Of a DNA stretch of 20,262 nucleotides, positions 1 to 12,952 are shown one piece after another. The notes below the pieces were generated by a model. That model did no database searches. It was not told the origin of the DNA and saw only the letters and a list, made by a program, of their open reading frames with translations. The DNA is taken from IMG/VR virus record IMGVR_UViG_3300035698_004995, positions 1 through 20,262 of that record. One strand, given 5' to 3'. Origin of the DNA: a virus. The position numbers were made by a program, and so were the translations under genes. Numbering within the stretch: the first letter of the stretch is position 1; each line of letters opens with the position of its first letter.

Positions 1-90
1 AGAGGAGATATAGCGGACGATGGGCATTTTGTGAATGATAGTATCACGTACAGTGTAAAAATGGCTTACAATCCAAGTAAAGGAGCTTAA
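1..90 (+). CDS. C-terminal end of an unidentified protein (5' truncated)
   Basis: The frame starting at base 1 is open to a TAA at 88-90 and gives 29 residues, ending in YSVKMAYNPSKGA. The start lies outside the window. The tail contains the ribosome binding site (aaaggagc) of the next gene, two bases upstream of whose ATG this one stops, so both are probably one operon. Too little remains to name a family. Confidence 0.6.
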   Translation, partial: RGDIADDGHFVNDSITYSVKMAYNPSKGA

Positions 91-91
91 A

Positions 92-703
92 ATGAGAACT
101 ATTATATTCGATATTGAAACGAAACCGAATGAGGGGCTGAAAGCCTATTGTGAAGGGACCATTAAACCGAAAGCTAATCTGAAGGACGTTGCTAAGATTG
201 CAGCGGACATTGAGGCTAAAAAGGGCTCCATTACGAAGAAGATGAGTACCGACATTGATTTATTGAGCATTTGTATGGTTGGAGTAAAGGAAGTTGGCTC
301 TGAGGATGGCACGATACTATCATTCGAGGAGTTTGTCGCCTATATAGATGCTGCTTTCAGCGACGGCACACAAAGCGTCAGACTAGTAAGTTTCAATGGA
401 AAGGCTTTCGATGTGCCGGCAATTATAAAGGAAGCGGTGCGATTGGACTATAATCTGCCATGGGCACAATTAAATCAGGCTACTAAGAAATGGGATTGTG
501 ATTTGCATGTGGATATTATGGAGGTGCTTTGTCCTTTTGGTAAGTTTAGGTCTAAAGATGAGTTTGCTAAGATATATTTAGGGTATGATGCGGAACCGAT
601 TGATTTCGCCAATGCTACCAGGGAAGAACTAGAAGCTCATTGTTTAGAGGATTTAGAAGTAACTGAGAAACTATATGAACTGTTTAATGGGAAATTATAC
701 TAG
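92..703 (+). CDS. Predicted DnaQ-like 3'-5' exonuclease (PolB-exonuclease-like, stand-alone)
   Basis: This 203-residue protein has the layout of a stand-alone DEDD-superfamily 3'-5' exonuclease of the PolB-exonuclease type (similar to DNA_pol_B_exo2), which removes nucleotides from DNA 3' ends. Motif I is FDIETKP (D7, E9). Motif II is SFNGKAFDVP (N102, D107). Motif III lies near the C-terminus, HCLEDLEVTEKLY, with D187. No polymerase domain is attached and none follows in the window. In motif III the residue four before the aspartate is His183, where DEDDy enzymes have Tyr (Yx3D) and DEDDh enzymes have Hx4D, so the spacing is DEDDy-like with a His. The start ATG has a good aaaggagc site. Seen: motifs. 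Inferred: proofreading or end-processing in phage replication or recombination. Confidence 0.75.
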   Translation: MRTIIFDIETKPNEGLKAYCEGTIKPKANLKDVAKIAADIEAKKGSITKKMSTDIDLLSICMVGVKEVGSEDGTILSFEEFVAYIDAAFSDGTQSVRLVSFNGKAFDVPAIIKEAVRLDYNLPWAQLNQATKKWDCDLHVDIMEVLCPFGKFRSKDEFAKIYLGYDAEPIDFANATREELEAHCLEDLEVTEKLYELFNGKLY

Positions 704-717
704 AAAGGGGTTATTCT

Positions 718-912
718 ATGATTACTAAATATAACTTAAAAGCCTGTCCGTTCTGTGGATTCGCCGCTAGAATGCAAAAAGTAAGGGCTGGCTGGGACAA
801 CGATACTACTTACTTTAAGGCCGTATGCACTGGATGCGGTGCTAATATGGATCGGTGGCATAAATATGCTGATGAAGCTGAAAGGTTCTGGAATCATCGG
901 GTGGAAGCGTGA
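718..912 (+). CDS. Lar-like restriction-alleviation family zinc protein
   Basis: This 64-residue protein begins with a CPFCG knuckle (residues 10-14), followed by a CTGCG knuckle and an aromatic/acidic tail ending in AERFWNHRV. That is the layout of the Lar-like family (Lar_restr_allev): one zinc ribbon and a conserved W-N-x-R end. Rac-prophage Lar modulates type I restriction in E. coli, but most phage homologues are untested, so an anti-restriction role is inference. It sits 14 bases after the exonuclease gene with an aaagggg ribosome binding site, and overlaps the next gene by 4 bases (GTGA). Confidence 0.7.
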   Translation: MITKYNLKACPFCGFAARMQKVRAGWDNDTTYFKAVCTGCGANMDRWHKYADEAERFWNHRVEA

Positions 913-1820
913 ATGGTTATGATAAGTTAGCTCAATTACAGTCCATGCCGCTTGAAGCGAAAGTGGCTCTTTCAACTCAGCGCATACGTCAATGGTACGA
1001 TCATTGGCATGGAAAGGTATATGTTGCGTTCAGTGGAGGGAAGGATTCGACTGTTCTATTACATTTAGTGCGCTCGTTATATCCTGAAGTAAAAGCAGTG
1101 TTCGTTGATACAGGTCTTGAATATCCAGAGATAAGATTATTTGTTAAGTCAATTGATAATGTTGTGTGGCTTAGGCCTAAGATGGCGTTCAGTGAAGTTG
1201 TAAGGAAATATGGCTATCCAGTTTTAGGGAAATCTACGGCAATGACCATAAGAAAGCTGTTAACGCAAAATCTTTCTGTTAGATACAGGAACAAGCTTAT
1301 GAACGGAGACGAGAGAGGGACTGCTGGAAAGCTGGCAGAAAAATGGAAGATAATGCTAGATGCTCCCTTTAAGATAAGTGAACAATGCTGTGATGTTATG
1401 AAAAAGAATCCAATAAAGGTGTTCGATAAGGAGTTTGGGTTAAAGCAATTTACTGGAGAGATGGCTTCAGAGAGTTTCAATAGGACGAAAGAGTACAATA
1501 AGAGCGGCTGTAATGCGTTTGATAACAAGATTCCTAAAAGCAAACCTTTATCTGTTTGGAATGACTGTGACATTTGGGAGTATATTGAGAGCAGAGCGTT
1601 ATCTTATAGCTCAATCTATGATACTGGGGTAAAGAGGACAGGCTGTATGTTCTGCATGTTTGGAGTGCATCTAGAGAAAGAGCCGAATCGCTTTCAACTA
1701 ATGAAGCATTCTCATCCTAAACAATGGGACTATTGTATAAACAAACTGGGATGCGGAGAAGTCCTAGATTACATTGGAGTAGATTATGGACAACAAGAAG
1801 AGTTTAATTTTAACAAATAA
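909..1820 (+). CDS. Phosphoadenosine phosphosulfate reductase-like / DndC-like PP-loop enzyme
   Basis: This 303-residue protein has the adenylation PP-loop SGGKDS at residues 42-47, followed by VFVDTGLEYPEI, the signature of the PAPS-reductase/ATP-pyrophosphatase superfamily. Several cysteines (QCCDVMKKNP near 155-165, RTGCMFCMFG near 243-252) resemble the cysteine set of phage PAPS-reductase-like and DndC-type proteins, where an Fe-S cluster can be bound. The start is GTG at 909, chosen because it overlaps the previous stop as GTGA; the next in-frame ATG is 12 codons in and has no better site. No dndB, dndD or dndE genes lie nearby, so phosphorothioation is not supported. It may act in sulfur metabolism or nucleic-acid modification; the substrate is unknown. 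Confidence 0.75.
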   Translation: MNGYDKLAQLQSMPLEAKVALSTQRIRQWYDHWHGKVYVAFSGGKDSTVLLHLVRSLYPEVKAVFVDTGLEYPEIRLFVKSIDNVVWLRPKMAFSEVVRKYGYPVLGKSTAMTIRKLLTQNLSVRYRNKLMNGDERGTAGKLAEKWKIMLDAPFKISEQCCDVMKKNPIKVFDKEFGLKQFTGEMASESFNRTKEYNKSGCNAFDNKIPKSKPLSVWNDCDIWEYIESRALSYSSIYDTGVKRTGCMFCMFGVHLEKEPNRFQLMKHSHPKQWDYCINKLGCGEVLDYIGVDYGQQEEFNFNK

Positions 1821-1833
1821 AAAGGAGAACGCA

Positions 1834-2205
1834 ATGATTAAAATTTATGTTGCTGGACATGATCAGAGAACGTCAAGAAAAATAGCTGAAATGTTGCCTA
1901 GAGATAAGGTGCAGATAACAGCATCTTGGCTATATGTGGATATGGATTTTGAGAAAGTTATGGACGAGTTCGAGAAGATGGATGGAGCTAATAGAGATGT
2001 TAATGAGATACTAGATGCTGATGCTATTCTGTTCCTTGCGTCTCTACGAAGATCGCCGGGAGGTAAGCATGTGGAACTTGGGGTAGCTATTGGGGCAGGT
2101 AAGAAAGTGTTCGCTATTGGGCATAGAGAGAATTTCTTAATGTTCAGTGATAAGGTTAGCATGTTCGATTCAGTTGAAGATTTTATTAATAGAGGACTTG
2201 CATAG
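1834..2205 (+). CDS. Nucleoside 2-deoxyribosyltransferase-like protein
   Basis: The protein is 123 residues from ATG 1834, which has the site aaaggagaac; an in-frame ATG 48 bases upstream lies inside the preceding gene and lacks one. It starts with a strand IKIYVAG and continues with NRDVNEILDADAILFLAS and SPGGKHVELGVAIGAGKKVFAIG. This is the pattern of the nucleoside 2-deoxyribosyltransferase family: Asp near a short strand, then a Glu in GxxxELGxA as the likely nucleophile. Family members move deoxyribose between bases or hydrolyse nucleotides. Together with the downstream PRPP synthetase this suggests nucleotide salvage. Enzymes of this fold also occur in anti-defence and signalling, so the exact reaction is open. 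Confidence 0.7.
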   Translation: MIKIYVAGHDQRTSRKIAEMLPRDKVQITASWLYVDMDFEKVMDEFEKMDGANRDVNEILDADAILFLASLRRSPGGKHVELGVAIGAGKKVFAIGHRENFLMFSDKVSMFDSVEDFINRGLA

Positions 2206-2219
2206 GAGGACACACGATA

Positions 2220-2255
2220 TGGTTACAAGAGTTTTTAAAACAATGCGCACCTAAC
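2220..2255 (+). CDS. Possible 11-residue mini-ORF ending in a repeat
   Basis: ATG 2220 follows a strong aggagg site (2206-2211) and gives MVTRVFKTMRT, stopping inside the 20-bp repeat at 2245-2264. It may be a leftover 5' end of a larger gene cut at the repeat, or a leader peptide. Low confidence as a functional gene. Confidence 0.25.
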
Positions 2256-2264
2256 CAGTAACAG
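2245..2264 (+). repeat. 20-bp direct repeat, copy 1
   Basis: The sequence GCGCACCTAACCAGTAACAG occurs here and, identically, at 4184-4203. Both copies lie just after a tiny interrupted ORF and just before a ribosome binding site. This position suggests a recombination or deletion junction between small gene cassettes. Confidence 0.8.
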
Positions 2265-2277
2265 AAAGAGAGTTGAT

Positions 2278-2331
2278 ATGGCAAATTGCATCTTTTGTAA
2301 ATACAGCTATCAAGGGAAGGATAAGATATGA
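2278..2331 (+). CDS. 17-residue Cys-containing mini-ORF before the PRPP synthetase
   Basis: ATG 2278 has a weak agaaagagag site and encodes MANCIFCKYSYQGKDKI. Its TGA overlaps the next ATG as ATGA, the junction used by real genes throughout this region. The CxxC looks like the first half of a zinc ribbon, so it may be a truncated relative of the small zinc proteins downstream. It could serve to couple translation into the next gene. Confidence 0.35.
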   Translation: MANCIFCKYSYQGKDKI

Positions 2332-3071
2332 GCATCGAACTATTTGGAAGTAGTTACAAATTTATACAATTCCCAGCGGGTGAATCACACGTAAGAGTCA
2401 CTAGAGAATCTGGTGAAGTAAGAATCAAGTGGACATATGAGGACGATAGTGAATTGTTTATACTGCTATTACTATGCGATGCCCTAAACAGGCTTCAAAT
2501 CAATATAGCATTCATTCAAATCCCTTATGTTCCGCACGCACGCCAGGATAGAATAACAGTTCCGGGAGAATCGCTGTCTATCAAGGTCTTCGCTGATGTG
2601 TTAAATACGCTAGGTGAGACTATCTTAATAAACGATGCACACTCACCAGTAACAACGGCTCTAATTAATAATTGTGTGGAAATAACACAATATGAAGGGC
2701 TACAACATGTACTTGAAGATAAGATCGCATTCTATCTCGTGTGTCCAGACGCAGGAGCCCATAAGAAAATCATTGAGTTCGCTACTCACAGAGGGTGCCT
2801 TGGTATCGTTGAGTGCTCAAAAGTACGCGATACAGTCACTGGTAATATTGTCGAGACAAAAGTAGATTTAGACTACACACCAGATATGGAAATGATTATC
2901 ATTGACGACATATGTGACGGTGGTAGAACATTTATTGAAATAGCCAAAGTGCTGCATGCTAACCATGCGGGTAAAGTAACATTGGCTGTGACTCATGGCC
3001 TATTCACCAAAGGCATCGAAGCCTTGGACATTATTGACGAAATTTGGACTAGGGAAGGGAAAGCGAAATGA
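2328..3071 (+). CDS. prs: Ribose-phosphate pyrophosphokinase (PRPP synthetase)
   Basis: This 247-residue protein is predicted to make PRPP from ribose 5-phosphate and ATP. Motifs in order: YVPHARQDR (residues 67-75; the bacterial enzyme has a similar aromatic-xx-ARQDR), NDAHSP with D103/H105 of the metal/ATP site, PDAGAHKK (140-147, pyrophosphate region), and the PRPP-binding loop IIIDDICDGGRT (190-201). At 247 residues it is shorter than the ~310-residue cellular enzyme, as in other phage homologues. Phage prs genes often accompany a nicotinamide phosphoribosyltransferase in NAD+ rebuilding that counters NAD-depleting defences; no such gene is in this window. The deoxyribosyltransferase-like neighbour fits nucleotide or NAD salvage. 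The start overlaps the previous mini-ORF as ATGA. Confidence 0.85.
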   Translation: MSIELFGSSYKFIQFPAGESHVRVTRESGEVRIKWTYEDDSELFILLLLCDALNRLQINIAFIQIPYVPHARQDRITVPGESLSIKVFADVLNTLGETILINDAHSPVTTALINNCVEITQYEGLQHVLEDKIAFYLVCPDAGAHKKIIEFATHRGCLGIVECSKVRDTVTGNIVETKVDLDYTPDMEMIIIDDICDGGRTFIEIAKVLHANHAGKVTLAVTHGLFTKGIEALDIIDEIWTREGKAK

Positions 3072-3097
3072 CAGAATTGCAATCTTATTTAAAATAA
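3068..3097 (+). CDS. Possible 9-residue mini-ORF after prs
   Basis: ATG 3068 overlaps the prs stop as ATGA and reads MTELQSYLK before TAA. The context (gggaaagcgaaATGACA) resembles the repeated start sites at 3325 and 4137. It may be a start-site remnant of a lost cassette rather than a working gene. Confidence 0.2.
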   Translation: MTELQSYLK

Positions 3098-3110
3098 CAA
3101 AGAAAAAGTA

Positions 3111-3176
3111 ATGGATAATAAATCCAAAAAAGTAGTTGTAAATGATTGGAAAACGAACGAAGGAGGTAACAGATGA
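3111..3176 (+). CDS. Possible 21-residue basic mini-ORF
   Basis: ATG 3111 opens a short frame starting MDNKSKKVVVNDW and ending at a TGA that overlaps the next ATG (ATGA). Its ribosome binding site is weak (aaagaaaaag). No recognisable domain; it may be a coupling leader. Confidence 0.25.
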   Translation: MDNKSKKVVVNDWKTNEGGNR

Positions 3177-3186
3177 CAAATAAGAG
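3161..3186 (+). repeat. 26-bp start-site direct repeat, copy 1
   Basis: The 26 bases from aggaggtaacag through ATGACAAATAAGAG are identical to 3956-3981. The repeat covers the ribosome binding site, the start codon and the first codons (MTNK) of two otherwise different small genes. Confidence 0.8.
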
Positions 3187-3328
3187 GTGTTGTGATTGTG
3201 TCCACTTTCACAGAGATGATAGAGACGAACAGCCATATTGCTTTTATGGAGTGCTTGTAAAACTAAATCCTAAAAATGTGTGTTATAAATATAAACGTAA
3301 ATGGTATAAGTTTGGGAGAGCGAGATGA
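3173..3328 (+). CDS. Small Cys-rich probable zinc-binding protein (51 aa)
   Basis: The product starts MTNKRCCDCVHFHRD and has further cysteines in YCFYG and NVCYKYK, giving a CxxC...C...C arrangement typical of tiny phage zinc-knuckle proteins. The end is basic (YKYKRKWYKFGRAR), compatible with nucleic-acid binding. The ribosome binding site is aaggaggt, and the stop overlaps the next start as ATGA. Function unknown. Confidence 0.65.
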   Translation: MTNKRCCDCVHFHRDDRDEQPYCFYGVLVKLNPKNVCYKYKRKWYKFGRAR

Positions 3329-3885
3329 TAAATAAGAGTGAGAGAACTGATGAGATTACTGAGTTGGATAGAGAGCTCGTGCAATACAGGTGCGCCTTAG
3401 AGATGGAGATTGCTGGGTTAAGGGCTGAACTAGCAAAACACAAGGTAAAGCAGGAGCTTGATGCAACAGAAATATTCGCCCACTTAATGCTTAGGTCAGA
3501 TGCTTGCGACGATGGCAGAGCAAATATTGCGATTGAAGATTTGGAGCAAGCTCTTTCTGGGTTCGTGGTAAAGCAGGAGAGTGGACTTGTTGAAAGATTT
3601 GACAGAGACATAGCAAACGACTTCGGCACTAGACCTAGTGATAAACAGGAGTGGGTTAGTGTTGAGGATAGGTTGCCAATAAATTGTGGAGAATATGCTG
3701 TTATTTGTCACTACGAAGGAGAAACTTGTGACGGTTATATTGTATGCGAGCCTTCTTGTTACAAAGAGATAATGAAGATAAGTTTTGCTGAAGACAAAGA
3801 AATTCTTTGTAATAGTCAGTTTGATAGCGAGTGGGAATGTGTAGTCTATTGGATGCCATTACCTGAATCACCAAAGGAGGTGTAG
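3325..3885 (+). CDS. Accessory protein with N-terminal coiled coil and C-terminal DUF551 domain
   Basis: This 186-residue protein has a charged helical N-terminus likely to form a coiled coil (about residues 5-45), a linker, and a C-terminal DUF551 domain. The domain starts at WVSVEDRLPINCGEYAVIC (about residue 110) and ends in YWMPLPESP. DUF551 is a common phage/prophage domain of unknown function. The start follows gggagagcgag and overlaps the preceding stop as ATGA; its first codons (ATGATAAATAAGAG) resemble the MTNK start cassette. Confidence 0.75.
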   Translation: MINKSERTDEITELDRELVQYRCALEMEIAGLRAELAKHKVKQELDATEIFAHLMLRSDACDDGRANIAIEDLEQALSGFVVKQESGLVERFDRDIANDFGTRPSDKQEWVSVEDRLPINCGEYAVICHYEGETCDGYIVCEPSCYKEIMKISFAEDKEILCNSQFDSEWECVVYWMPLPESPKEV

Positions 3886-3887
3886 TT

Positions 3888-3971
3888 GTGAATATTTGGA
3901 TTATTGTCTTGTTGTTTTATTTAACATTCATTTTGGGTGCAATCGTAGGATATACAGGAGGTAACAGATGA
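3888..3971 (+). CDS. Single-pass membrane peptide (27 aa, GTG start)
   Basis: A GTG at 3888, nine bases after a perfect aaggaggt, opens a 27-residue frame. It has one hydrophobic helix (IWIIVLLFYLTFILGAIVG) and a short polar end. Its TGA overlaps the next ATG. The strong binding site and overlap support a real gene. Membrane microproteins of this kind appear in phage accessory regions; function unknown. Confidence 0.55.
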   Translation: MNIWIIVLLFYLTFILGAIVGYTGGNR

Positions 3972-3981
3972 CAAATAAGAG
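3956..3981 (+). repeat. 26-bp start-site direct repeat, copy 2
   Basis: Identical to 3161-3186. It places the same ribosome binding site and MTNK start codons in front of a different small gene. Confidence 0.8.
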
Positions 3982-4147
3982 CTTGTTACCAGATTTTATA
4001 ATAAAAGCAAGCAAGATACTTTTAAAAGAGGAATACTGTCCCCATCATGTTGGGTTGAAAGCAGACAGGGAAGCGTGTGTCAAACACGAATGCGATAAGT
4101 GTTGGAAAGAAGCCATTAAACAGTTGGGAGAGCGAAATGACAAATAA
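3968..4147 (+). CDS. Small Cys/His-rich protein (59 aa)
   Basis: The product starts MTNKSLLPDFIIKASK and has the motif EYCPHH, then ACVKHECDKCW. That makes four cysteines plus histidines arranged as a probable single zinc site. It shares its start region with the gene at 3173 through the 26-bp repeat, but the bodies differ. It overlaps the next mini-ORF by 11 bases. Function unknown. Confidence 0.6.
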   Translation: MTNKSLLPDFIIKASKILLKEEYCPHHVGLKADREACVKHECDKCWKEAIKQLGERNDK

Positions 4148-4184
4148 GCAGGGAGTCAAAGACTACCTACTAAACATTACCTAG
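4137..4184 (+). CDS. 15-residue mini-ORF with MTNK start, probable gene remnant
   Basis: ATG 4137 in gggagagcgaaATGACAAATAAG is the third MTNK start in 1 kb. It reads MTNKQGVKDYLLNIT and stops at the first base of the 20-bp repeat (4184-4203). It looks like the 5' end of a cassette gene cut at the repeat. Confidence 0.3.
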   Translation: MTNKQGVKDYLLNIT

Positions 4185-4203
4185 CGCACCTAACCAGTAA
4201 CAG
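4184..4203 (+). repeat. 20-bp direct repeat, copy 2
   Basis: Identical to 2245-2264. It begins at the last base of the stop codon of the mini-ORF at 4137, and the next ribosome binding site (aggaggag) overlaps its end. Confidence 0.8.
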
Positions 4204-4221
4204 GAGGAGAATAACAACCTA

Positions 4222-4617
4222 ATGGACAATCTACGCAATAACACAATAACAACAACAATGGAACTATTCTTTAAAGGGCGTGACATCAATGCGATTTCCG
4301 GGGGAGCAAGTGTAACGGCTGGAAATGCTGTAAGCGTCAAGACCATCAAGAAGGTTATTAAGAAATGCCTGTCTGACTATACCGAACACAAGAGAAACAG
4401 GCTTAGATGCCAATATTGGGCGAAACAGGCTAAGTATGAGGTGGCCATTAATGGATGCACGGTGCTACAAAAAGCAGGGCATGATGTGTCTGCTGATAAT
4501 GGACAAAGTATTTCTAATTTAGTTGATAGCATGGAGCCATTAAGACGAGCTATTGGATATTGGGATGAGGGGACTATTTATGAACTGGATTATATGATTG
4601 GAGAGGAGTTGGTATGA
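4222..4617 (+). CDS. Hypothetical protein (131 aa)
   Basis: Not recognised. The protein has a Thr-rich N-terminus (NNTITTTMELFFKGRD), a small-residue stretch (ISGGASVTAGNAVSVKT), a basic middle (KKVIKKC, HKRNRLRCQYWAKQAKYE) and an acidic end. Soluble, with no signal or membrane segment. The ATG is 12 bases after aggaggag, rather long; an in-frame ATG at 4258 is an alternative start. It overlaps the next gene by 4 bases (ATGA). Confidence 0.6.
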   Translation: MDNLRNNTITTTMELFFKGRDINAISGGASVTAGNAVSVKTIKKVIKKCLSDYTEHKRNRLRCQYWAKQAKYEVAINGCTVLQKAGHDVSADNGQSISNLVDSMEPLRRAIGYWDEGTIYELDYMIGEELV

Positions 4618-4832
4618 CAATAGAAAATCAAGATGCCTACATTGATAATTTCTTAACTAAAGCATTTAACGTTCTAACCGATCACTCTAAGGGATGCTAT
4701 AACCGAGATTGCACATGGGAGTATTTATCTTACCATTATAATAAATGTGTTCAGGAACTATGTGGGGATAATGGGGTTGAGAGTCTTAGAGAGAAACGGA
4801 TGAGCACAAGGGGGTTGAATGGCACAGACTAG
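4614..4832 (+). CDS. Hypothetical small protein (72 aa)
   Basis: Not recognised. The middle contains GCYNRDCTWEYLSYHYNKCVQELCG, with four cysteines and several aromatics, followed by a basic tail. The start follows gagaggagt and overlaps the previous stop; the end overlaps the next gene by 14 bases. Confidence 0.6.
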   Translation: MTIENQDAYIDNFLTKAFNVLTDHSKGCYNRDCTWEYLSYHYNKCVQELCGDNGVESLREKRMSTRGLNGTD

Positions 4833-5028
4833 GTTTGGTAGTTTAATAGAAGGTCTTACTAATATCGTTATTGGTTACACAATAAACTTTATTATTAACA
4901 TGCTGGTATTGCCGTTTTTTGTAGAGGGATTCACGGTAAAGGACAATCTGGTATTAGGTGTTATCTACACGGCAATTTCACTGGTTAGATCGTATGTTAT
5001 TAGAAGGTTCTTTAATGGGAAGGAGTAA
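4819..5028 (+). CDS. DUF7220-like small membrane protein
   Basis: This 69-residue protein matches the layout of the small phage family DUF7220. It starts FGSLIEGLTNIVIGYTINFIIN (first membrane helix), then LPFFVEGFTVKDNLVLGVIYTAISLVRSYVIRRFFNG (second helix and conserved RSYxxRRxFN end). Two membrane passes are predicted. The start has a purine-rich agggggttga site and lies inside the previous gene's end. Function unknown. It is the last gene before the 349-base gene-free region. Confidence 0.7.
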   Translation: MAQTRFGSLIEGLTNIVIGYTINFIINMLVLPFFVEGFTVKDNLVLGVIYTAISLVRSYVIRRFFNGKE

Positions 5029-5053
5029 TATATCTCAGCTAATTGCACATGAG

Positions 5054-5066
5054 GTCTTGACAAGAC
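5054..5066. promoter_or_regulatory. Palindromic operator candidate over the -35 box
   Basis: GTCTTG-A-CAAGAC is a perfect inverted repeat of 6-base arms around one base. It covers the TTGACA -35 element (5057-5062), so a dimeric repressor bound here would block RNA polymerase. No repressor gene was recognised in the window. Confidence 0.5.
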
Positions 5067-5085
5067 GCACCAAATTTGATACAAT
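5057..5085 (+). promoter_or_regulatory. Strong sigma70-type promoter
   Basis: TTGACA (5057-5062), a 17-base spacer, then TACAAT (5080-5085): a perfect -35 and a near-perfect -10 at optimal spacing. Transcription is expected to start at about 5091-5093, the first base of the stem at 5092-5100. It lies in the only sizeable gene-free stretch of the window. Confidence 0.75.
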
Positions 5086-5091
5086 GTAAAA

Positions 5092-5208
5092 CATCCACTG
5101 GAAGATTAAAAGTATTTCTTTTTACACACCTCCTCCCTTGAGAGTAAGGGTGCAATGCCGTATCAGTGGATGATATAAAACTCGGTGTTGCGCCCTTTCT
5201 TTCTCTTT
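5092..5208 (+). ncRNA. Candidate structured RNA / attenuated leader (~117 nt)
   Basis: No ORF covers this stretch. From the predicted start, catccactg (5092-5100) pairs perfectly with cagtggatg (5164-5172), closing a 63-base interior. Inside are a weak AU hairpin (5108-5112 with 5118-5122) and a hairpin ccctt/aaggg (5135-5139 with 5146-5150). The stretch 5126-5136 (acacctcctcc) is single-stranded or partly paired and contains the 16S rRNA anti-Shine-Dalgarno sequence cacctcct. A competing 15-bp helix (5146-5160 with 5183-5197) uses the aaggg strand and is followed by a U-rich tract, as in an intrinsic terminator. This could be a free small RNA or a switch-type leader. No known riboswitch or ribozyme core was recognised. 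Pairing is from reading only. Confidence 0.5.
5146..5208 (+). terminator. Probable intrinsic terminator of the structured RNA
   Basis: AAGGGTGCAATGCCG (5146-5160) can pair with CGGTGTTGCGCCCTT (5183-5197) over 15 bp, including three G-U pairs. The loop is 22 bases and the pyrimidine-rich tttctttctcttt follows (5196-5208). The large loop contains the 3' strand of the closing stem, so terminator and closing stem would form a pseudoknot or exclude each other. Confidence 0.5.
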
Positions 5209-5377
5209 AGAGGACTTTTAAGCCACACAAATAACAGCGAGTAACTAGGGCATGAATTAACTTAACTAAATAACATTGAAACCGTATCTAGTGAAGAGCC
5301 TTGAAGAAGCAGTTGCCACCACAACACTAGTTACTCGCTATTAATAAGGTTACGACCGAAACTAAAGGAGGTTACAG
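5209..5377 (+). other. Gene-free remainder of the intergenic region
   Basis: This 169-base stretch between the terminator-like RNA and the next ribosome binding site has no ORF with a usable start. Apart from the long inverted repeat at 5236-5339 and the aaaggaggtt site (5364-5373), I see nothing assignable. It may be the untranslated leader of the recombination operon or part of a replication origin. Confidence 0.4.
5236..5339. repeat. 13-bp perfect inverted repeat enclosing 78 bases
   Basis: AGCGAGTAACTAG (5236-5248) is the exact reverse complement of CTAGTTACTCGCT (5327-5339). The next four bases inside the left arm (ggca) can pair with tgcc near 5314-5317. An alternative pairing, ctagtg (5288-5293) with cactag (5325-5330), would compete with the long stem. 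No T-run follows, so it is not a standard terminator. It could be an RNA domain, an origin element or a protein-binding site. Confidence 0.65.
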
Positions 5378-5518
5378 ATGAACGAGGAACAGATGGAAGT
5401 AACGTGTATGGAGACATGGAATAACATCTTGTTTGTAGGCACTAAAAACGGACTGTACGAGCTTGGTGATTTTGGGCTTGTAAGGGTCTCACTAGAAGAT
5501 GCGGAGGACGTATTATGA
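5378..5518 (+). CDS. Hypothetical small protein (46 aa)
   Basis: ATG 5378 follows a perfect aaaggaggtt site. The protein starts MNEEQMEVTCMETWNN and contains ILFVGTKNGLYELGD, which resembles a single beta-sheet blade, then an acidic end. The TGA overlaps the next ATG (ATGA). First gene after the intergenic RNA region. Function unknown. Confidence 0.55.
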   Translation: MNEEQMEVTCMETWNNILFVGTKNGLYELGDFGLVRVSLEDAEDVL

Positions 5519-5577
5519 ACGAAGAACAGATGGAACTATTATTAAAAGAGGAACGGGAGGGTAGATATGAGCAATGA
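5515..5577 (+). CDS. 20-residue mini-ORF with MNEEQME start
   Basis: The start overlaps the previous stop, and the first seven residues (MNEEQME) repeat the start of the preceding gene, at DNA level as well. It reads on as LLLKEEREGRYEQ and ends inside the next gene. It looks like a duplicated start cassette; it may only couple translation. Confidence 0.3.
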   Translation: MNEEQMELLLKEEREGRYEQ

Positions 5578-5752
5578 GCACTACAACACAGAACTAGAAG
5601 ACATGTTCCTAGACCATCTAGGGGACGGGGCATTAACCGATGAGGACGTATTGGTGGGAGCAGATAAGTTCTATGAGAATATTATGCAGTTCGCTGATGT
5701 GTTAAGGGATGATGATGCTACACTTAATTTTGTAAATGGAGAGGAGTTGTAA
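5567..5752 (+). CDS. Hypothetical acidic protein (61 aa)
   Basis: This acidic, soluble protein has no known motif (LEDMFLDHLGDGALTDEDVLVGADKFYENI). The site gggagggtag precedes ATG 5567, which overlaps the previous mini-ORF. It ends one base before the ATG of the ATPase gene, suggesting coupling. Function unknown. Confidence 0.6.
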   Translation: MSNEHYNTELEDMFLDHLGDGALTDEDVLVGADKFYENIMQFADVLRDDDATLNFVNGEEL

Positions 5753-5753
5753 T

Positions 5754-6458
5754 ATGGCAGGACCATTCGTATTAGGAAGTGATTCAGAGGGCGTTGTAAC
5801 GGACATATCTAAACAGATATTCTTGTTATACGGCCGTCCGAAGATAGGAAAGAGTGACTTGGCAAGTAAGTTCCCAGGCGTTATATTCGCCGCAACGGAG
5901 CCAGGCACTAAGTATTTGGGTGTCAAGAAAAACAACATATTAACATGGGTTGACTTTCTCTATTTCTCTAAAGCTATCATTGACGGTGGACATACCTATA
6001 AAAACATGTGCATTGATACAGTAGATGTGCTGGTTAAACTAGCGTCCGATTACATCTGTGAGAAGAACGGAATTGGACATCCTGGCGATATGCCGATGGG
6101 TAAGGGATGGGCTCTTGTAACGGATGAGATTAGAAAGGTATTAAATAAGGTAAGTATGTGTGGGGTTGGAATCATCATGATAACTCACTCAAAGGACTAT
6201 GAGATCGTGACACGTAAAGAGAAGTTCACTAAAATGGACCTAGCATTAAGTGGTCAGAATAAAATGGTAGTGGAGAATCTGTCCGATCATATTCTGCTTA
6301 TTGATAGTGCCATGGACGGTGATAACGAGGTCCGTTTCATTCGCACACAGGGCAGTAAATTTTGGAACGCAGGCAGTCGATGCCCTGAATTACAGGAAGC
6401 CGGAACAATCGCATTGAGCTATGAGGCTCTATCGGGTTATTTTACTAAAGAAGATTAG
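5754..6458 (+). CDS. Sak4-like RecA-fold ATPase (AAA_24 family)
   Basis: The protein is 234 residues from ATG 5754; an upstream in-frame ATG at 5736 lies inside the previous gene and precedes the gagaggag site, so the later start fits. The Walker A motif is GRPKIGKS (residues 27-34) and the Walker B-like strand is CIDTVD (86-91), followed by GIIMITHSK (sensor-like). This is the pattern of phage AAA_24 proteins, including Sak4-type single-strand annealing/recombination ATPases, small RecA-core proteins that act with a ssDNA-binding partner. The next gene is the expected place for that partner. Role in phage recombination is inferred from family and context. Confidence 0.75.
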   Translation: MAGPFVLGSDSEGVVTDISKQIFLLYGRPKIGKSDLASKFPGVIFAATEPGTKYLGVKKNNILTWVDFLYFSKAIIDGGHTYKNMCIDTVDVLVKLASDYICEKNGIGHPGDMPMGKGWALVTDEIRKVLNKVSMCGVGIIMITHSKDYEIVTRKEKFTKMDLALSGQNKMVVENLSDHILLIDSAMDGDNEVRFIRTQGSKFWNAGSRCPELQEAGTIALSYEALSGYFTKED

Positions 6459-6476
6459 AAAGAGGAGGAACATTTT

Positions 6477-7295
6477 ATGCAAGACGGAGACGTAGTAGCA
6501 AGTGGAGAGATAGCAAACAACACAACTAACATGCACGATAACAGTGAATTTAAACCAGAAGAGAATACTTTGAGTGATGCAGATAAAAGAATGATGAATG
6601 ATAATAAGGAAGTAGCACCATCAATCGATGCAATGGCACAACAGGCAGCAGCTTTCTTTGATGGGGAAGTAAAGGAACCGATGGCAGAAGCACAAGGAGC
6701 AGACTTTGATAAGTTTGCAGACGTATTGGTGGCATTCAAACCAACTCCTATTAAAGAGAATGGACCATCGTTCCTAAAAGGGTTCTTTAAGGCTCGCATT
6801 GATAGTATTCGTCGCTATACAGGAACCGACAAGAACGGTAATCCATACGACATGTATAGTTTTGCCGTCGAGACTACTGGCCTTGGGAATAAGAAATCAA
6901 AAGGTTATGCTGGTAAAAAGTTATCTGAAACATTCTCGTTGATTGACGGAACCTATAATGATTCGGCAGCTAATTTCCAGAAACTATTAACGTTCTTGTT
7001 CTATGCTGGCATTGAAATCAACTTTGCCAACTGGGATGAGTTTGACGGTAAATGCGGTGAGCTAGAAGGCAAACCATGTTTCGTTGATGTTAAACCTAAA
7101 ATGAAATGGTTGGTAGAAGGACCTGAAGGGTCAAAAACCTTTACGAAAGTGTTAGGTGACGATGGCAAACAACTGTTCGTTGAACGGGACGGTTACATTG
7201 AACATAAATGGGAAATCGTTCCTAACATTCCGAACATGCTGAAGGACGAGGAAGAAACTGCTGGACCTAGTTTGACAGCCGTTCCAGTATTCTAG
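6477..7295 (+). CDS. Probable ssDNA-binding / recombination partner protein (DUF669-like)
   Basis: This 272-residue protein has a long acidic, low-complexity N-terminus (about residues 1-80). A beta-rich core follows: FFKARIDSIRRYTGTD, then ANFQKLLTFLFYAGIEINF and GELEGKPCFVDVKPKMKW. Proteins with this core layout, often called DUF669, commonly sit next to Sak4-like ATPases and are thought to bind single-stranded DNA. The family assignment rests on pattern and position, not on a clear motif. The site agaggagg precedes the ATG by 8 bases. A terminator follows 18 bases downstream. Confidence 0.5.
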   Translation: MQDGDVVASGEIANNTTNMHDNSEFKPEENTLSDADKRMMNDNKEVAPSIDAMAQQAAAFFDGEVKEPMAEAQGADFDKFADVLVAFKPTPIKENGPSFLKGFFKARIDSIRRYTGTDKNGNPYDMYSFAVETTGLGNKKSKGYAGKKLSETFSLIDGTYNDSAANFQKLLTFLFYAGIEINFANWDEFDGKCGELEGKPCFVDVKPKMKWLVEGPEGSKTFTKVLGDDGKQLFVERDGYIEHKWEIVPNIPNMLKDEEETAGPSLTAVPVF

Positions 7296-7313
7296 ATAAC
7301 ACTAATTAATAAT

Positions 7314-7350
7314 GCCCCTCTTGTGACACTAGTTGCTTGAGGGGCTCTTT
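7314..7350 (+). terminator. Intrinsic terminator-like hairpin
   Basis: GCCCCTC (7314-7320) pairs perfectly with GAGGGGC (7339-7345) over an 18-base loop, followed by tcttt. The T-tract is short, so it may be partial. It separates the ATPase/ssDNA-binding pair from the ERCC4 nuclease gene. Confidence 0.65.
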
Positions 7351-7365
7351 AGATGGGAAGGACGT

Positions 7366-7950
7366 ATGGCATACCGAGATACAATAACCATAAAGGTAGA
7401 TAGCCGTGAACAGAAACCATTGAGCTTCGGACGTTACAAAGATGTATTCAGTGTTCGTGAAGGTCTCAAACAGGGCGATTACGGAGCCGTTCTGCACACT
7501 AAGTTTGGTGATTTAAATAGCCGACTAGTATTCGACAGGAAATCTAAAGGCGATCTCTGGGGAACTTTTGCTGGCAACTATGATAGATTCAAACGAGAGT
7601 TCAATAGAAGCCTTGTAGCGCATGAGAAATTATGTCTCATCACGGAAGATGGGGTATCTGACATTTGCACTAAAGGGTTTTTCTTTAAAGGCAGACGGCA
7701 TGAGACATCAGGTGCTACATTGCAGAAGAAATTAGAGACGTTACGTGAGAAGTATGGATTGGAAGTAGTGTATTGTGCGGGAAGGACTGACATGCAACGG
7801 TATCTTGTAGGACGGTTCATGGCACAGTGTAGATTGGTTAATGCATTGCTTAAAGAGTTTAATAAGACAGATAACTGGGAGCTACTTAATACTATTAATA
7901 GAAAGGTGTTCTTATGGGATACAAGAGCAGAGGCAATTTCAAAACAATGA
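7366..7950 (+). CDS. ERCC4-type (XPF-family) nuclease
   Basis: The protein is 194 residues from ATG 7366, chosen for the site gggaagga; an in-frame TTG at 7333 lies in the terminator loop. Motifs: VDSREQ (residues 11-16), LKQGDYG (35-40), FDRKSKGD (56-63) and FAGNYDRFKREF. They match the ERCC4 nuclease domain, whose catalytic core is GDx(n)ERKxxxD; the Glu of ERK is Asp here. These nucleases cut branched or flap DNA and often belong to phage recombination modules, which suits the neighbours. A helix-hairpin-helix domain is not evident, so it is the nuclease domain with a C-terminal extension. The end overlaps the next gene by 37 bases. Confidence 0.75.
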   Translation: MAYRDTITIKVDSREQKPLSFGRYKDVFSVREGLKQGDYGAVLHTKFGDLNSRLVFDRKSKGDLWGTFAGNYDRFKREFNRSLVAHEKLCLITEDGVSDICTKGFFFKGRRHETSGATLQKKLETLREKYGLEVVYCAGRTDMQRYLVGRFMAQCRLVNALLKEFNKTDNWELLNTINRKVFLWDTRAEAISKQ

Positions 7951-8096
7951 GCGTCGAGGAATACAAGAAGATTAGCTGGGGTAAGAAAGAGAAAGATGTG
8001 TTCTGTAGTAAATGTGGTGGTCTAATATGTAATGGACTAGCTGGCGATGAGACATTTAGAGTCTGTGAGGATTGTGGACGAATGGATTGTGAGTAA
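7914..8096 (+). CDS. Small zinc-ribbon protein (60 aa)
   Basis: The motifs FCSKCGG and VCEDCGRMDC give two CxxC knuckles about 23 residues apart, a compact zinc ribbon. The site aaaggtg supports ATG 7914; an alternative ATG at 7947 overlaps the nuclease stop as ATGA. The N-terminus is basic. It may bind nucleic acid; function unknown. Confidence 0.6.
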   Translation: MGYKSRGNFKTMSVEEYKKISWGKKEKDVFCSKCGGLICNGLAGDETFRVCEDCGRMDCE

Positions 8097-8133
8097 CAGG
8101 AATCAGTAGATAACAGGGAAGGAGGAGGTGTAT

Positions 8134-8586
8134 ATGAACAATGTAATATTTTCAAGTAGAAGTGACAACTGGTCTACACCAAAGAATTTATACGACATGC
8201 TTAATGAAGAGTTTGACTTTAACTTTGATCCTTGCCCACTTAGAAATGATTATGTTCTTGACGGACTAACAATTGAGTGGGGTAAGAGAACATTTGTTAA
8301 TCCACCATACAGCGACATTAAGAAATGGGCGAAGAAATGTTACGAAGAGTCATTGAAGAGAAAAACTATAGTTATGTTAATCCCCAGCAGAACTGACACT
8401 AAGTATTGGCATGACCATATCATGCTTGCAGACGAGATAAGATTTATTAAGGGTCGGTTAAAGTTTGGTGATGCAACCAACAGCGCCCCATTCCCTTCTG
8501 CTGTAGTTATCTTTGATGGTGACCACGTTTACAGAAAGTACGGAGAAGTTGTTTGTGGTGTCAGTTGCGTGGGGATGGTGCTGTAA
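8134..8586 (+). CDS. Phage N6-adenine DNA methyltransferase (Dam-like)
   Basis: The protein is 150 residues. It starts with SDNWSTPKNLYDMLNEEF, then FNFDPCPL (residues 30-36) and FVNPPYS (54-60), the catalytic NPPY. This is the compact phage Dam family (phage N-6-adenine-methyltransferase), which transfers methyl from S-adenosylmethionine to adenine, usually GATC. No restriction enzyme is nearby, so it is probably an orphan methylase protecting phage DNA from host nucleases. ATG 8134 is 5 bases after ggaggagg; a GTG two codons earlier would sit inside that site. This binding site is complementary over 11 bases to the RNA at 5126-5136. It ends TAATG with the next gene. Confidence 0.8.
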   Translation: MNNVIFSSRSDNWSTPKNLYDMLNEEFDFNFDPCPLRNDYVLDGLTIEWGKRTFVNPPYSDIKKWAKKCYEESLKRKTIVMLIPSRTDTKYWHDHIMLADEIRFIKGRLKFGDATNSAPFPSAVVIFDGDHVYRKYGEVVCGVSCVGMVL

Positions 8587-9599
8587 TGGGACAAGCAATA
8601 GTATATACCATAAAACAGATGTTAGACCTAGAGTTTAAGTATGACTGGCTAGTAAGTAAATTCCTAATGGTCGGTGACGTTTGGCTCATAAAGGCTCAGA
8701 AGAAAGTTGGGAAAGGAGTGTTGTCTCAGCAGCTTGCGTTCGCTCTCAGCTGTGGAGAGAGGTTCTTGGGCTGTTTCGATACTAAAGGACCATGTAAGGT
8801 GGCGTATCTGTCAGGGGAAGGTTACATTGGTAACTGGCAGAGTCGCATACGAAACATGAAGAAAATGTGGAAGTGCGATGAGGATAACATAACCTTCATT
8901 GATTGCATTGGTTTCAAGCTCCATGGAGATAATGACGCTAAACAGATGCTTGAGATATTAGTAAAGCAGAATGTAAATTACGACGTGCTGATATTCGATC
9001 CGTTGTTTCGGCTCTGTGCTAACGGGGACATCAACAGTAACGCCGACATGGCTCAATTCTTCGGGAACGTTGAGATGATGGTTAAGCATTTTAGTGCGTC
9101 TGCTATCGTAGTTCATCATGACTCTGAGAAAGTGTATCGTGATAATAGAGGCCAGAAACACTCAAGTGCGTCGGTTAAGAACGCAATGGGAGCGTCAGCA
9201 ATTACATGGGCAGCTAGTCACTATGCAACACTAACAACCTATAAGGACAAGAACAAGAAGAAGATTCATAGACTGCAGATGGGTGATTGCCGGTCTTCTG
9301 ACTATGTTGATGACATTGAGTTCTGCATGATAACGCCAGAATCTGATGAATTAGGACGTCTTGGTTACACGACAGATGTAGAAGATACTAACGTCCATTA
9401 TCACGCTATCAAAGAGTACCTATATAAGAATAGAAAGGTTAGCGACCATAAGATATATGATACTATCGGTGTTGCGTCAGCTACCTTCTATCGGAACATT
9501 AAGAAATTACAGGACCATGGGTTTGTTACTAAAGATACTGATGCTCATGGGAAACATTATTATGTTTGGAATGATGAAATGGAGGTAGAGAATGGGTAG
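8586..9599 (+). CDS. RepA-like AAA_25 ATPase / replicative helicase with C-terminal winged helix
   Basis: The protein is 337 residues from ATG 8586, which overlaps the methylase stop as TAATG. Walker A is AQKKVGKG (37-44), the K-x-GKG form of RepA/RSF1010-like hexameric helicases. Walker B-like is VLIFDPLFRL (134-143), followed by SAIVVHHDSEKVYRDNRG with the conserved HH. The last 80 residues (YHAIKEYLYKNRKVSDHKIYDTIGVASATFYRNIKKLQDHGFV) look like a winged-helix DNA-binding domain. The probable role is helicase or loader in phage replication. No primase motif is visible. Confidence 0.75.
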   Translation: MGQAIVYTIKQMLDLEFKYDWLVSKFLMVGDVWLIKAQKKVGKGVLSQQLAFALSCGERFLGCFDTKGPCKVAYLSGEGYIGNWQSRIRNMKKMWKCDEDNITFIDCIGFKLHGDNDAKQMLEILVKQNVNYDVLIFDPLFRLCANGDINSNADMAQFFGNVEMMVKHFSASAIVVHHDSEKVYRDNRGQKHSSASVKNAMGASAITWAASHYATLTTYKDKNKKKIHRLQMGDCRSSDYVDDIEFCMITPESDELGRLGYTTDVEDTNVHYHAIKEYLYKNRKVSDHKIYDTIGVASATFYRNIKKLQDHGFVTKDTDAHGKHYYVWNDEMEVENG

Positions 9600-9933
9600 G
9601 GAGATTAAGTTTAGATGTTGGGACATTAGTAAAGGAACTATGTTTAAACCATACAAGGAGCTTTGTTTTGTTGATGGTCGACTTATAGGTGACGGGGGAA
9701 CTATTAGACATGATGCCGACAGCATCATGCAATTCACTGGCTTATATGACAGAAATGGTGTTGAGATATATGAGGGAGATATTATAAATGTTGGCTACAA
9801 CTATATAGGCATGAGGGTTGTTGAGTTTATAAGTGGAAGGTTTTCGGCAGAGGGATATAACCTTAAACGGTGTGAGGTTATCGGTAATATTCACCAGAAC
9901 CCAGAGTTACTAATGGAGGCAACACATGGCTGA
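9592..9933 (+). CDS. YopX-family protein
   Basis: This 113-residue protein has the YopX layout. It starts GREIKFRCWDISKGTM, has a central MQFTGLYDRNGVEIYEGDII (conserved Q-x-TGLxDxxGxxIYEGDI) and ends EVIGNIHQNPELL. YopX-type proteins are frequent in phages; their role is unknown, with proposals in host takeover or phage regulation. It overlaps the preceding gene by 8 bases (site atggaggt) and the next by 8. Confidence 0.85.
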   Translation: MGREIKFRCWDISKGTMFKPYKELCFVDGRLIGDGGTIRHDADSIMQFTGLYDRNGVEIYEGDIINVGYNYIGMRVVEFISGRFSAEGYNLKRCEVIGNIHQNPELLMEATHG

Positions 9934-10132
9934 ACTATTCTCATTAAAAGCAGAAGTAACTCAGGAAACTGACACATGGCAGGATAGCTCTGACGGACAC
10001 CAGCAATTAGACATTGAATATGTTGATGGCTATTACATTATTAAAACTGAACGATGGGCGTTCGAGACTGTAATGGAATTAACCGAAACGTTAGATAAAC
10101 TCCGGAAAGCAGTAGGTGTATTCAATGGCTGA
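9926..10132 (+). CDS. Hypothetical protein (68 aa)
   Basis: Not recognised. The acidic N-terminal half is followed by YVDGYYIIKTERWAFETVMELTETLDKLRKAVG, which suggests a beta hairpin and an amphipathic helix. The ATG follows atggaggcaac and overlaps the YopX gene; the end overlaps the next start. Confidence 0.6.
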   Translation: MAELFSLKAEVTQETDTWQDSSDGHQQLDIEYVDGYYIIKTERWAFETVMELTETLDKLRKAVGVFNG

Positions 10133-10358
10133 ACATTTCTGTGTTGAGTGCAAGAAACTAGTAGAGATAGTTCATACTGGCGAGATCAAGGAAGAGTTCA
10201 AATGTATATGCTCTAAATGTTACAAAGAACTGTTCGGCAGTGGTCCGGTAGAAGCTATCGGATCAATGTGTTTTACGGCCCTGAACTTACATGCTGATGA
10301 CGTTAAGATACTGAATGATATTCTTAAAGGGAAGGAGCCAACTGATGAGCAAGACTAA
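10125..10358 (+). CDS. Small zinc-binding protein (77 aa)
   Basis: The motifs FCVECKK and CICSKCYKEL give two CxxC pairs, a probable zinc ribbon, followed by a helical tail ending LNDILKGKEPTDEQD. ATG 10125 is preferred over the upstream in-frame GTG 10116, because aggtg lies at the right distance. It overlaps the flanking genes by 8 and 14 bases. Function unknown. Confidence 0.6.
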   Translation: MAEHFCVECKKLVEIVHTGEIKEEFKCICSKCYKELFGSGPVEAIGSMCFTALNLHADDVKILNDILKGKEPTDEQD

Positions 10359-11025
10359 AACGGTTCTAGTTATAGGCGATACTCATTTACCATTTGAACA
10401 TGACGGCTACCTAGCATTCTGTAAACGAATAGAGAAAGCCTATAAATGTAGTGAAGTTATCCATATAGGTGACCTAGTAGACAACAACGCAATCAGCTAC
10501 CATGAGAACGACCCTGATGGCCTCAGCCCAGCTGACGAGATGAAAGAGACTGACGATAAACTGAAGCTCTGGTTCAAGGCTTTCCCGAAAGTTAAGCTAT
10601 GCAGGGGCAATCACGATATTCTAGTTGACCGTAAAGGACGAACTGCTGGCTTACCAACTCGCTGTTTTAAGGACTTCAGGGACATCTGGAAACTGCCGGA
10701 CACATGGCAAGATGATTTCAGTTTCGTTATAGGGGATGTGCTATATAAGCATAGCGGTGCAGGTGGAAAGTTCGGTCATGTGCAGACTGCCAATAATGAG
10801 CGCATGAACACTGTTATTGGGCATTTACACTCGGTAGCTGGCGTTGAATATACTGCTAGTGAGCGAGACATCATCTTCGGTATGTGCGTTGGTTGCGGAA
10901 TTGACCGTAATAAGTATGCGTTCGCTTATGGTAAAGGGTTTGCAAGAAAACCAATATTAAGCTGCGGAGTTGTTAATTACTCACCTAAAGGGACAAGCGC
11001 CATAGTTGTTCCTATGAAAATGTAA
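10345..11025 (+). CDS. Calcineurin-like metallophosphoesterase
   Basis: The protein is 226 residues from ATG 10345 (site gggaaggagc). The metal-binding motifs appear in order: GDTH (11-14), GDLVDN (42-47), GNHD (88-91) and GHLH (159-162). These define the two-metal calcineurin-like phosphoesterase fold. Candidate substrates are nucleic-acid ends, cyclic nucleotides or phosphoproteins; the sequence does not decide. Some phage homologues are annotated as DNA-repair exonuclease-like or protein phosphatases. The gene lies in the early block beside unknown small genes. Confidence 0.85.
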   Translation: MSKTKTVLVIGDTHLPFEHDGYLAFCKRIEKAYKCSEVIHIGDLVDNNAISYHENDPDGLSPADEMKETDDKLKLWFKAFPKVKLCRGNHDILVDRKGRTAGLPTRCFKDFRDIWKLPDTWQDDFSFVIGDVLYKHSGAGGKFGHVQTANNERMNTVIGHLHSVAGVEYTASERDIIFGMCVGCGIDRNKYAFAYGKGFARKPILSCGVVNYSPKGTSAIVVPMKM

Positions 11026-11036
11026 AGGAGCTAACC

Positions 11037-11213
11037 ATGGGAATGATTAAAGGCCAACGTGAATGGAACAAATTCGAGCGTGGTGAGCCACTCAGCAGAA
11101 CAGAATGTATTAAGGCTCATTGCTACGATTGCAACGGCCGAGAAGACAGTAGAATAGACTGTAAAGGGTTTAACTGCCCATTGTATCGTTATCAACCATA
11201 TCGTTCAAAATAG
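11037..11213 (+). CDS. Small Cys-rich protein (58 aa)
   Basis: ATG 11037 follows aaaggagct. The protein is basic at both ends and has ECIKAHCYDCNG, then IDCKGFNCPLYRYQPYR: five or six cysteines in a C-x4-C-x2-C...C-x4-CPLY layout common in phage zinc-knuckle proteins. It lies 11 bases after the phosphoesterase gene. Function unknown. Confidence 0.65.
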   Translation: MGMIKGQREWNKFERGEPLSRTECIKAHCYDCNGREDSRIDCKGFNCPLYRYQPYRSK

Positions 11214-11262
11214 AGGCTTAAACGGCACTTAATCGCCGTCTACAGCACAAGAGAGGAGAGTC

Positions 11263-11784
11263 ATGTCAGACGCAATACACTGGGATAAAGAGAAAATAGA
11301 CAAGTTGCATAAGATAATAAACTATACGCTCAGGAAGCATGGAGTCAATGATTGCCGAACTTTCTGCAAGGCTGACATTAGACAGGACATAGTGCATAAC
11401 GCGTTAGTAACTCCTGACTTCTTTGATAGCTATATATTTATGAGGGTCAAGAGAAGAATGTATGATGCAATCAGAAAATATACTGGCAGGGGTAAGGTTA
11501 CAAATATGAACATTTTCTCTCTAAGCGAGAATAATTATGATTTAGAAATGCCTGTTTATTCCAAGACTAGACATCGCGCTGACGTTCTTATGATGAAACA
11601 TGTGGTTAATAGCTCTAGGTTAAATGATGTTAAAAAGAAAATGTTTGTAGAATACTACGAGAAAGACAGGACGCTGAAGGATATTGGGTTTACTATAGGG
11701 CTGACTGAATCTAGGGTTTGTCAAATAGTAAGAGAGCTTAACGAGTTTATAAGACGCAAATACAAAAACATGAAGGAGGTGTAA
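11263..11784 (+). CDS. Small sigma-70-family factor (FliA-like)
   Basis: This 173-residue protein has a C-terminal sigma region 4-like helix-turn-helix: KKMFVEYYEKDRTLKDIGF, then GLTESRVCQIVRELNEFIRRK. The central FMRVKRRMYDAIRKYTG resembles the end of region 2/region 3 of FliA/WhiG sigma factors (R-x-RGAxxDxLR). Full FliA is about 240 residues, so region 2 is shortened. It could direct host RNA polymerase to phage promoters, fitting its place near the end of the early block and the oppositely oriented late genes. A DNA-binding regulator derived from a sigma factor is the main alternative. The site gagaggagagtc precedes the ATG. Confidence 0.6.
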   Translation: MSDAIHWDKEKIDKLHKIINYTLRKHGVNDCRTFCKADIRQDIVHNALVTPDFFDSYIFMRVKRRMYDAIRKYTGRGKVTNMNIFSLSENNYDLEMPVYSKTRHRADVLMMKHVVNSSRLNDVKKKMFVEYYEKDRTLKDIGFTIGLTESRVCQIVRELNEFIRRKYKNMKEV

Positions 11785-11785
11785 C

Positions 11786-12052
11786 ATGGCAATAAATACT
11801 TCGGGAGACATAGTGAACCATCCTAAACACTACACAGCTCACCCATCTGGCGTGGAATGCATCCAGATAACTGAACATCTCAGCTTCCTAAGAGGCAATG
11901 CTGTCAAATATCTATGGAGAGCAGGAGAGAAAGACGATGCAATACAGGACCTAGAGAAAGCAGTCTGGTATATCAATAAGGAGATTGCCAAGCTAAACAC
12001 CGCAAAGTTTGCAGGGTATGAGGATAAAGGGTGGGCATCAGATGTGGTCTGA
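11786..12052 (+). CDS. DUF3310 family protein
   Basis: This 88-residue protein contains VNHPKHYTAHPSGVECIQI, then SFLRGNAVKYLWRAGEKDDAIQDLEKAVWYINKEI: the conserved NHPxHY...ECI and FxxGNAxKYxWRxxxK signatures of DUF3310. The fold is sometimes linked to nucleotide kinase-like or MazG-like proteins, but the activity is not established. The site aaggaggtg gives strong translation. It overlaps the next small membrane gene by 11 bases. Confidence 0.85.
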   Translation: MAINTSGDIVNHPKHYTAHPSGVECIQITEHLSFLRGNAVKYLWRAGEKDDAIQDLEKAVWYINKEIAKLNTAKFAGYEDKGWASDVV

Positions 12053-12176: not shown

Positions 12177-12201
12177 GCATACTATGAGAAAAGGAGCTAT
12201 A

Positions 12202-12918: not shown

Positions 12919-12927
12919 ACGCACAAG

Positions 12928-12952
12928 TTGGTTGGGGCTCATCACCCCTTCC
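12928..12952. terminator. Weak bidirectional terminator candidate between convergent blocks
   Basis: In the 36 bases between the convergent genes, ggttgggg and ccccttcc face each other across ctcatca. Four G-C pairs form next to the loop, then two T-T mismatches, then two G-C pairs. No strong T-run follows on either strand. Termination is expected here from gene orientation, but the hairpin is weak. Confidence 0.3.

Follow-up and report, generated by a model that had tools for sequence, protein, structure and literature searches.

A candidate structured RNA with its own promoter and an anti-Shine-Dalgarno loop ahead of a viral recombination operon

The IMG/VR record IMGVR_UViG_3300035698_004995, from an uncultured bacterial virus, corresponds in its entirety to the stretch of DNA analysed here, which we call the window (20262 bases). 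Its genes occupy the + strand between 92 and 12918; from 13230 onward they are encoded on the - strand. The candidate RNA occupies a 349-base gap between a gene at 4819-5028, whose product belongs to DUF7220 (Pfam PF23858), and a small ORF of 46 aa on the + strand (5378-5518), the first of the downstream operon. This operon includes a Sak4-like annealing protein (5736-6458), consistent with the original prediction, which had placed the RNA upstream of recombination genes. Farther downstream follow an ERCC4-type nuclease (7333-7950), an N6-adenine DNA methyltransferase (8128-8586, with GTG at 8128 or ATG at 8134 as its start) and a primase-like protein (8553-9599). No tRNA or tmRNA was detected in the window, and this identity was rejected for the stretch; a coding region was likewise rejected, as no convincing open reading frame accounts for it. 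A 24-nt repeat (5378-5401 and 5515-5538, 92% identical), encoding MNEEQMEV and MNEEQMEL, opens the operon's first two small ORFs, like a duplicated gene start. Similarly, two gene starts at ~3161-3184 and ~3956-3980 have by eye GGAGGTAACAGATGACAAATAAGAG in common, spanning both the ribosome-binding site and the start, which hints at a duplication of small genes.

The gap contains a sigma-70-type promoter at 5057-5085 (+), TTGACA-17-TACAAT, as had been predicted, here found to match the consensus at 11 of 12 positions and to carry an extended TG. It is the best site and the only one with 11 matches on either strand of positions 1-20000, where Markov sequences would give 0.33 such sites per strand. 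Its -10 box ends at 5085, placing +1 near 5092. The spacing thus agrees with the proposal that transcription begins at the first base of a stem; as a run of A at 5088-5091 precedes a C at 5092, however, a start at 5090 or 5091 is equally likely.

Two helices dominate the predicted transcript, and both exist as originally described. Helix P1 joins CATCCACTG (5092-5100, +), at the predicted transcript start, to CAGTGGATG (5164-5172, +) by nine perfect Watson-Crick pairs, and helix T joins AAGGGTGCAATGCCG (5146-5160, +) to CGGTGTTGCGCCCTT (5183-5197, +) by 15 pairs, three of them G-U. The minimum free energy (MFE) of 5092-5208 is -35.9 kcal/mol (z -4.31), a value that none of 200 shuffles equalled, and among 1390 folding windows on both strands the minimum z, -5.4, falls on the 117-nt one that begins at 5105 (+). 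Taken singly, P1 or T is weaker evidence than this whole-stretch fold: the window holds six Watson-Crick helices of at least nine pairs with loops of at most 80 nt, against 4.75 expected, and one 15-pair helix with a loop of at most 40 nt, against 0.33 expected. What stands out, albeit judged after the fact, is that the promoter, a helix placed at its predicted start site and another, strong helix occur together, and we consider it quite likely that the stretch encodes a structured RNA transcribed from a promoter of its own. The second-lowest z in the scan (-5.1) belongs to 12906-13022 (+), where the + strand gene block ends, and this fold is possibly a terminator.

A DNA element, for instance an origin of replication or a site bound by a protein, is another conceivable identity: the promoter has two inverted repeats next to it, replication and recombination genes lie downstream, and the folds would be side effects of the repeats. 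In the folding window with the lowest z, however, the + strand reaches -5.4 and the - strand only -3.9; better folding of the + strand is what G-U pairs would produce, and these are meaningless in DNA. Iterons are absent as well, and the three short direct-repeat families in 5029-5600 all extend into ORFs. We therefore regard a DNA element as very improbable.

Intrinsic terminators are marked by a G+C-rich stem, a short loop and a run of T. The stem of T is strong, its loop measures 22 nt, and the T-tract, TTTCTTTCTCTTTA at 5196-5209 (+), the presumed termination zone, is interrupted by C. A simple terminator scanner detected nothing in 4000-7000, and a terminator-scoring formula gave T 1.8 at best and -18.8 and -28.3 with other stem limits, the score hinging on the chosen stem end. 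Of the predicted terminator, the stem and the U-rich tract thus stand, while the long loop, the interruption and the blank scan make the label a weak one; T would be an unusual, non-canonical terminator. Antitermination through boxA, whose consensus we take to be YGCTCTTTA, was considered and rejected: TTCTCTTTA at 5201-5209 matches with one mismatch, as do 12 sites in the window where 11.5 are expected.

Could T and the U-tract merely terminate the upstream genes, with the promoter either belonging to the next operon or spurious, and with P1 and the loop sequence discussed below coincidental? T begins 118 nt beyond the nearest gene on its upstream side, and P1-like helices are close to expectation in the window (6 vs 4.75), both of which would fit. 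Against this, any transcript from the promoter has to cross T, which is downstream of it; P1 begins at the predicted +1; and z for the whole stretch is -4.3 to -5.4. On balance, we judge this explanation unlikely.

The original prediction had T trapping the closing strand of the stem in its loop, and the 3' strand of P1 does lie within the 22-nt loop of T; the two helices need not exclude each other, as precisely this arrangement would let both form at once in an H-type pseudoknot whose connecting segments measure 45, 3 and 10 nt. Its energy comes to about -36.3 kcal/mol by a rough stacking sum with a pseudoknot penalty. The best nested fold (-35.9) instead combines T with an outer GAGAG extension and a cap hairpin, UAUCA-GUGGA-UGAUA (5161-5175, +), that is an alternative to P1, while a fold forced to contain P1 reaches -25.7. 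By these rough energies, the pseudoknot may be on a par with the best nested fold. In the growing transcript, P1 with two inner hairpins is predicted to be optimal until 5194 (-24.9), and T prevails by 5198. The ccctt/aaggg hairpin, proposed as the competitor of T, appears only transiently during transcript growth before CACCU/AGGGUG takes over; it is this latter pairing, part of the P1 fold, that T would displace, thereby releasing an anti-Shine-Dalgarno run.

The same succession of folds is what a true riboswitch might use, with P1 closing a ligand-binding three-way junction in competition with T. However, P1 and T are able to coexist, no Rfam aptamer was found even at E 10, no homologue was found that could reveal a conserved core, and no gene has an evident link to a ligand. 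With positive evidence for ligand sensing nil, we consider a riboswitch very unlikely; of the two natures originally suggested, a riboswitch or attenuator on the one hand and a pseudoknotted small RNA on the other, it is the pseudoknot that may form.

The released run is a feature that the original prediction did not mention and is new here. The loop connecting P1 and T displays CCTCCTCCC at 5129-5137 (+), unique in the window, and these positions carry the anti-Shine-Dalgarno motif CCUCCUCCC. Its overlapping CCTCC pair is the sole CCTCC in 1-13000 (+), a range in which 0.0014 occurrences of the 9-mer are expected and one was found, a rarity calculated only after the motif had been spotted. 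In the nested fold, the predicted unpaired probability of 5126-5136 is 0.4-0.98.

Where might such a seed bind? One predicted partner lies in the leader itself: in the folded leader (5092-5420), 5128-5134 pairs with 5366-5372, within the AGGAGG Shine-Dalgarno region of the first downstream ORF (5366-5373, +), with a probability of up to 0.72, and a second pairing, of 5094-5100 to 5390-5397, reaches up to 0.86, so that two long-range helices would flank the start codon at 5378 on both sides. Much of the remaining leader is filled by a second inverted repeat on the + strand, with a 17-nt left arm at 5232-5248 that matches the right arm at 5327-5343 to 94%. Its 13 perfect Watson-Crick pairs form the window's longest such helix, one expected 0.08 times; the MFE of 5209-5375 overall is ordinary (z -0.94).

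These features invite the explanation of a purely cis-acting leader, in which T and the U-tract would form an attenuator, the seed would pair with the operon's own Shine-Dalgarno sequence, and protein, translation or polymerase speed would shift the fold, a free small RNA being irrelevant. The pairings around the start codon, the strong inverted repeat and the uniform + strand orientation of all downstream genes to 12918 agree with it. Shuffled segments, however, do as well in a quarter to a third of cases, equalling the binding to the operon start in 33% of 300 shuffles and the sequestration in 25% of 120, and no homologues were found. We regard this explanation as rather unlikely.

A second predicted partner lies in trans. 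Bases 5126-5136 could form 11 Watson-Crick pairs with 8121-8131 (+), at the ribosome-binding site of the N6-adenine DNA methyltransferase, and this initiation region is the best duplex partner on either strand once the RNA's own complement is excluded. Among 25 initiation regions, it ranks first both after opening energies are subtracted (-11.4 vs -7.9 for the next) and by partition function (-20.1 vs -15.5). How far this exceeds chance depends on the control. Taken as a single target, the methyltransferase pairing is equalled by 0.7% of 300 shuffled segments; allowing the best of the 25 regions, 23.5% of 200 composition-matched shuffles equal the real segment. Shuffling the whole RNA reproduces the best duplex in 36% of 300 cases, 44% of 400 Markov RNAs can form 11 consecutive Watson-Crick pairs with the window, and 1.5% of 200 segments drawn at random from the window equal the best value of the real one. 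By composition-matched controls, neither the methyltransferase pairing nor the operon-start pairing is significant. Because random segments rarely do as well (1.5%) and shuffles often do (23.5%), the pyrimidine-rich make-up is unusual in this genome, and a target beyond it is unproven; the apparent targeting may be nothing more than the match of a loop rich in C and U to the purines of ribosome-binding sites.

The search for relatives leaves the RNA an orphan. In Rfam 15, no covariance model matched any part of the window above gathering, the best sub-threshold match in 4990-5400 being a microRNA model (22.3 bits where 89 are needed, E 0.039); the original description of the RNA as undescribed agrees with this. 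The c4 RNA, which we take to be represented in Rfam, gave no match at gathering or at E 10. No homologue emerged from Rfam, IMG/VR, phages, plasmids or genomes: blastn with 5040-5378 returned merely four records among phages, at E 1 or worse, and three among plasmids, at E 4. Twenty loci with the P1 pattern in viral contigs were rejected, their blastn similarity being limited to short matches and their number being about what chance would give by a rough estimate. The core pattern CCTCCCTT..AAGGGTGCAA identified eight loci in four contexts in viral contigs, which were also rejected, with P1 present by eye in none, and a stricter version gave zero loci in genome contigs. One group among the eight, from unrelated viruses (L133, L135 and L137), shows CTTTTTACA-CCTCCCTT-AGAGG-AAGGGTGCAA in the order of the window RNA. 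With P1 and T absent by eye and a different spacing, the likeness is probably due to chance.

Anchoring the search on neighbouring proteins led to 42 loci for the methyltransferase, 22 for the DUF7220 protein, 36 for a tail protein and six for a phosphoesterase, to none for Sak4, and to none for the ORF at 6477 in either viral or genome contigs. The gene order around the RNA is absent from these loci, each of which matched at most three window proteins; the locus listings may omit records very near the window's own genome. In 20 of the 22 DUF7220 loci, those examined, the next ORF as a rule begins shortly after the DUF7220 gene, and no promoter-like site with more than nine of 12 matches occurs within 300 bases after it. 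The covariance-model search called for by the original prediction, run with a single-sequence model on 96 sources (the window and 95 of 139 loci), returned the window alone at a useful E-value, the next match having E 1.6, and so brought forward no homologues in which compensating changes could be sought.

In the PMC literature, no published counterpart matched the candidate, and the closest parallels are partial. UpsM is described as an sRNA derived from the 5' leader of the Rhodobacter dcw cluster, and shares with the candidate a long operon leader (268 nt there, ~286 here) and an internal terminator able to release a leader-derived RNA; it differs in belonging to an alphaproteobacterial cell-division operon and in that both the RNA and its Hfq-dependent cleavage have been demonstrated experimentally, according to the account in PMC5089854. 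CCUCCUCCC is described as the ultraconserved anti-Shine-Dalgarno motif of the alphaproteobacterial alpha-r14 sRNAs, such as NfeR1 (PMC10746234), and likewise for SmelA075/A099 (PMC3927594). The candidate has the identical motif in a predicted unpaired region and a sigma-70 promoter, as these RNAs are reported to have (PMC3927594, PMC10746234). As in alpha-r14 RNAs, the motif at 5129-5137 is partly to mostly unpaired in the nested fold; whereas they are described with three hairpins, each bearing the motif (PMC10746234), it occurs once in the window, in a connecting loop, and the candidate has no Rfam match. The candidate is thus similar to UpsM in layout and to alpha-r14 in seed, a similarity that does not amount to membership in either. 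RydC, too, is a small RNA with a pseudoknot, but is described as Hfq-bound and conserved with an exposed 5' seed (PMC4337610), whereas the 5' end of the candidate is paired and its seed lies in a long loop. The c4 RNA of phages P1 and P7, finally, is reported to base-pair at a ribosome-binding site, probably through sequences in loops, and to control an antirepressor gene (PMC12197685); in this last respect it differs from the candidate, which also lacks an Rfam match.

What, then, might the RNA do? We tentatively favour, at somewhat below even chances, a partly terminated leader that yields a pseudoknotted small RNA masking ribosome-binding sites. From the promoter at 5057-5085, transcription would start near 5092 and produce a ~286-nt leader of the replication/recombination operon; some polymerases would halt past T, at ~5200-5209, releasing a small RNA of ~110-118 nt. 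P1 would close its 5' end and T its 3' end as an H-type pseudoknot, and the long connecting loop would display CCUCCUCCC as an anti-Shine-Dalgarno seed. The likeliest phage target would be the mRNA of the DNA adenine methyltransferase, and where transcription reads through, the same seed might cover the Shine-Dalgarno sequence of the operon itself. A bolder version, in which both ends are locked and the loop mimics the 3' tail of 16S rRNA to restrain translation of the methyltransferase and, upon read-through, of its own operon, we consider improbable; if true, replication and genome methylation would be timed by one element. For the favoured small RNA, the candidate may be an orphan of a known kind, with a promoter and a tight fold, its regulatory role being a reasoned guess. 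If real, it would be an orphan phage RNA of unusual design, combining pseudoknot-locked ends with an anti-Shine-Dalgarno loop, and a testable case of one RNA timing a replication operon and a methyltransferase; until a homologue or a transcript is known, we regard it as a well-formed candidate and not as a discovery.

Elsewhere in the window, 11263-11784 encodes a protein with a sigma-70 region 4 domain (PF04545), perhaps a phage sigma-like factor. Large tail-fibre-like proteins at 15066-19878 (-) have what by eye resemble N-terminal signal peptides, and two of them share the motif DPTIRKYMWYGETAGGVPAKIQVEADGT.
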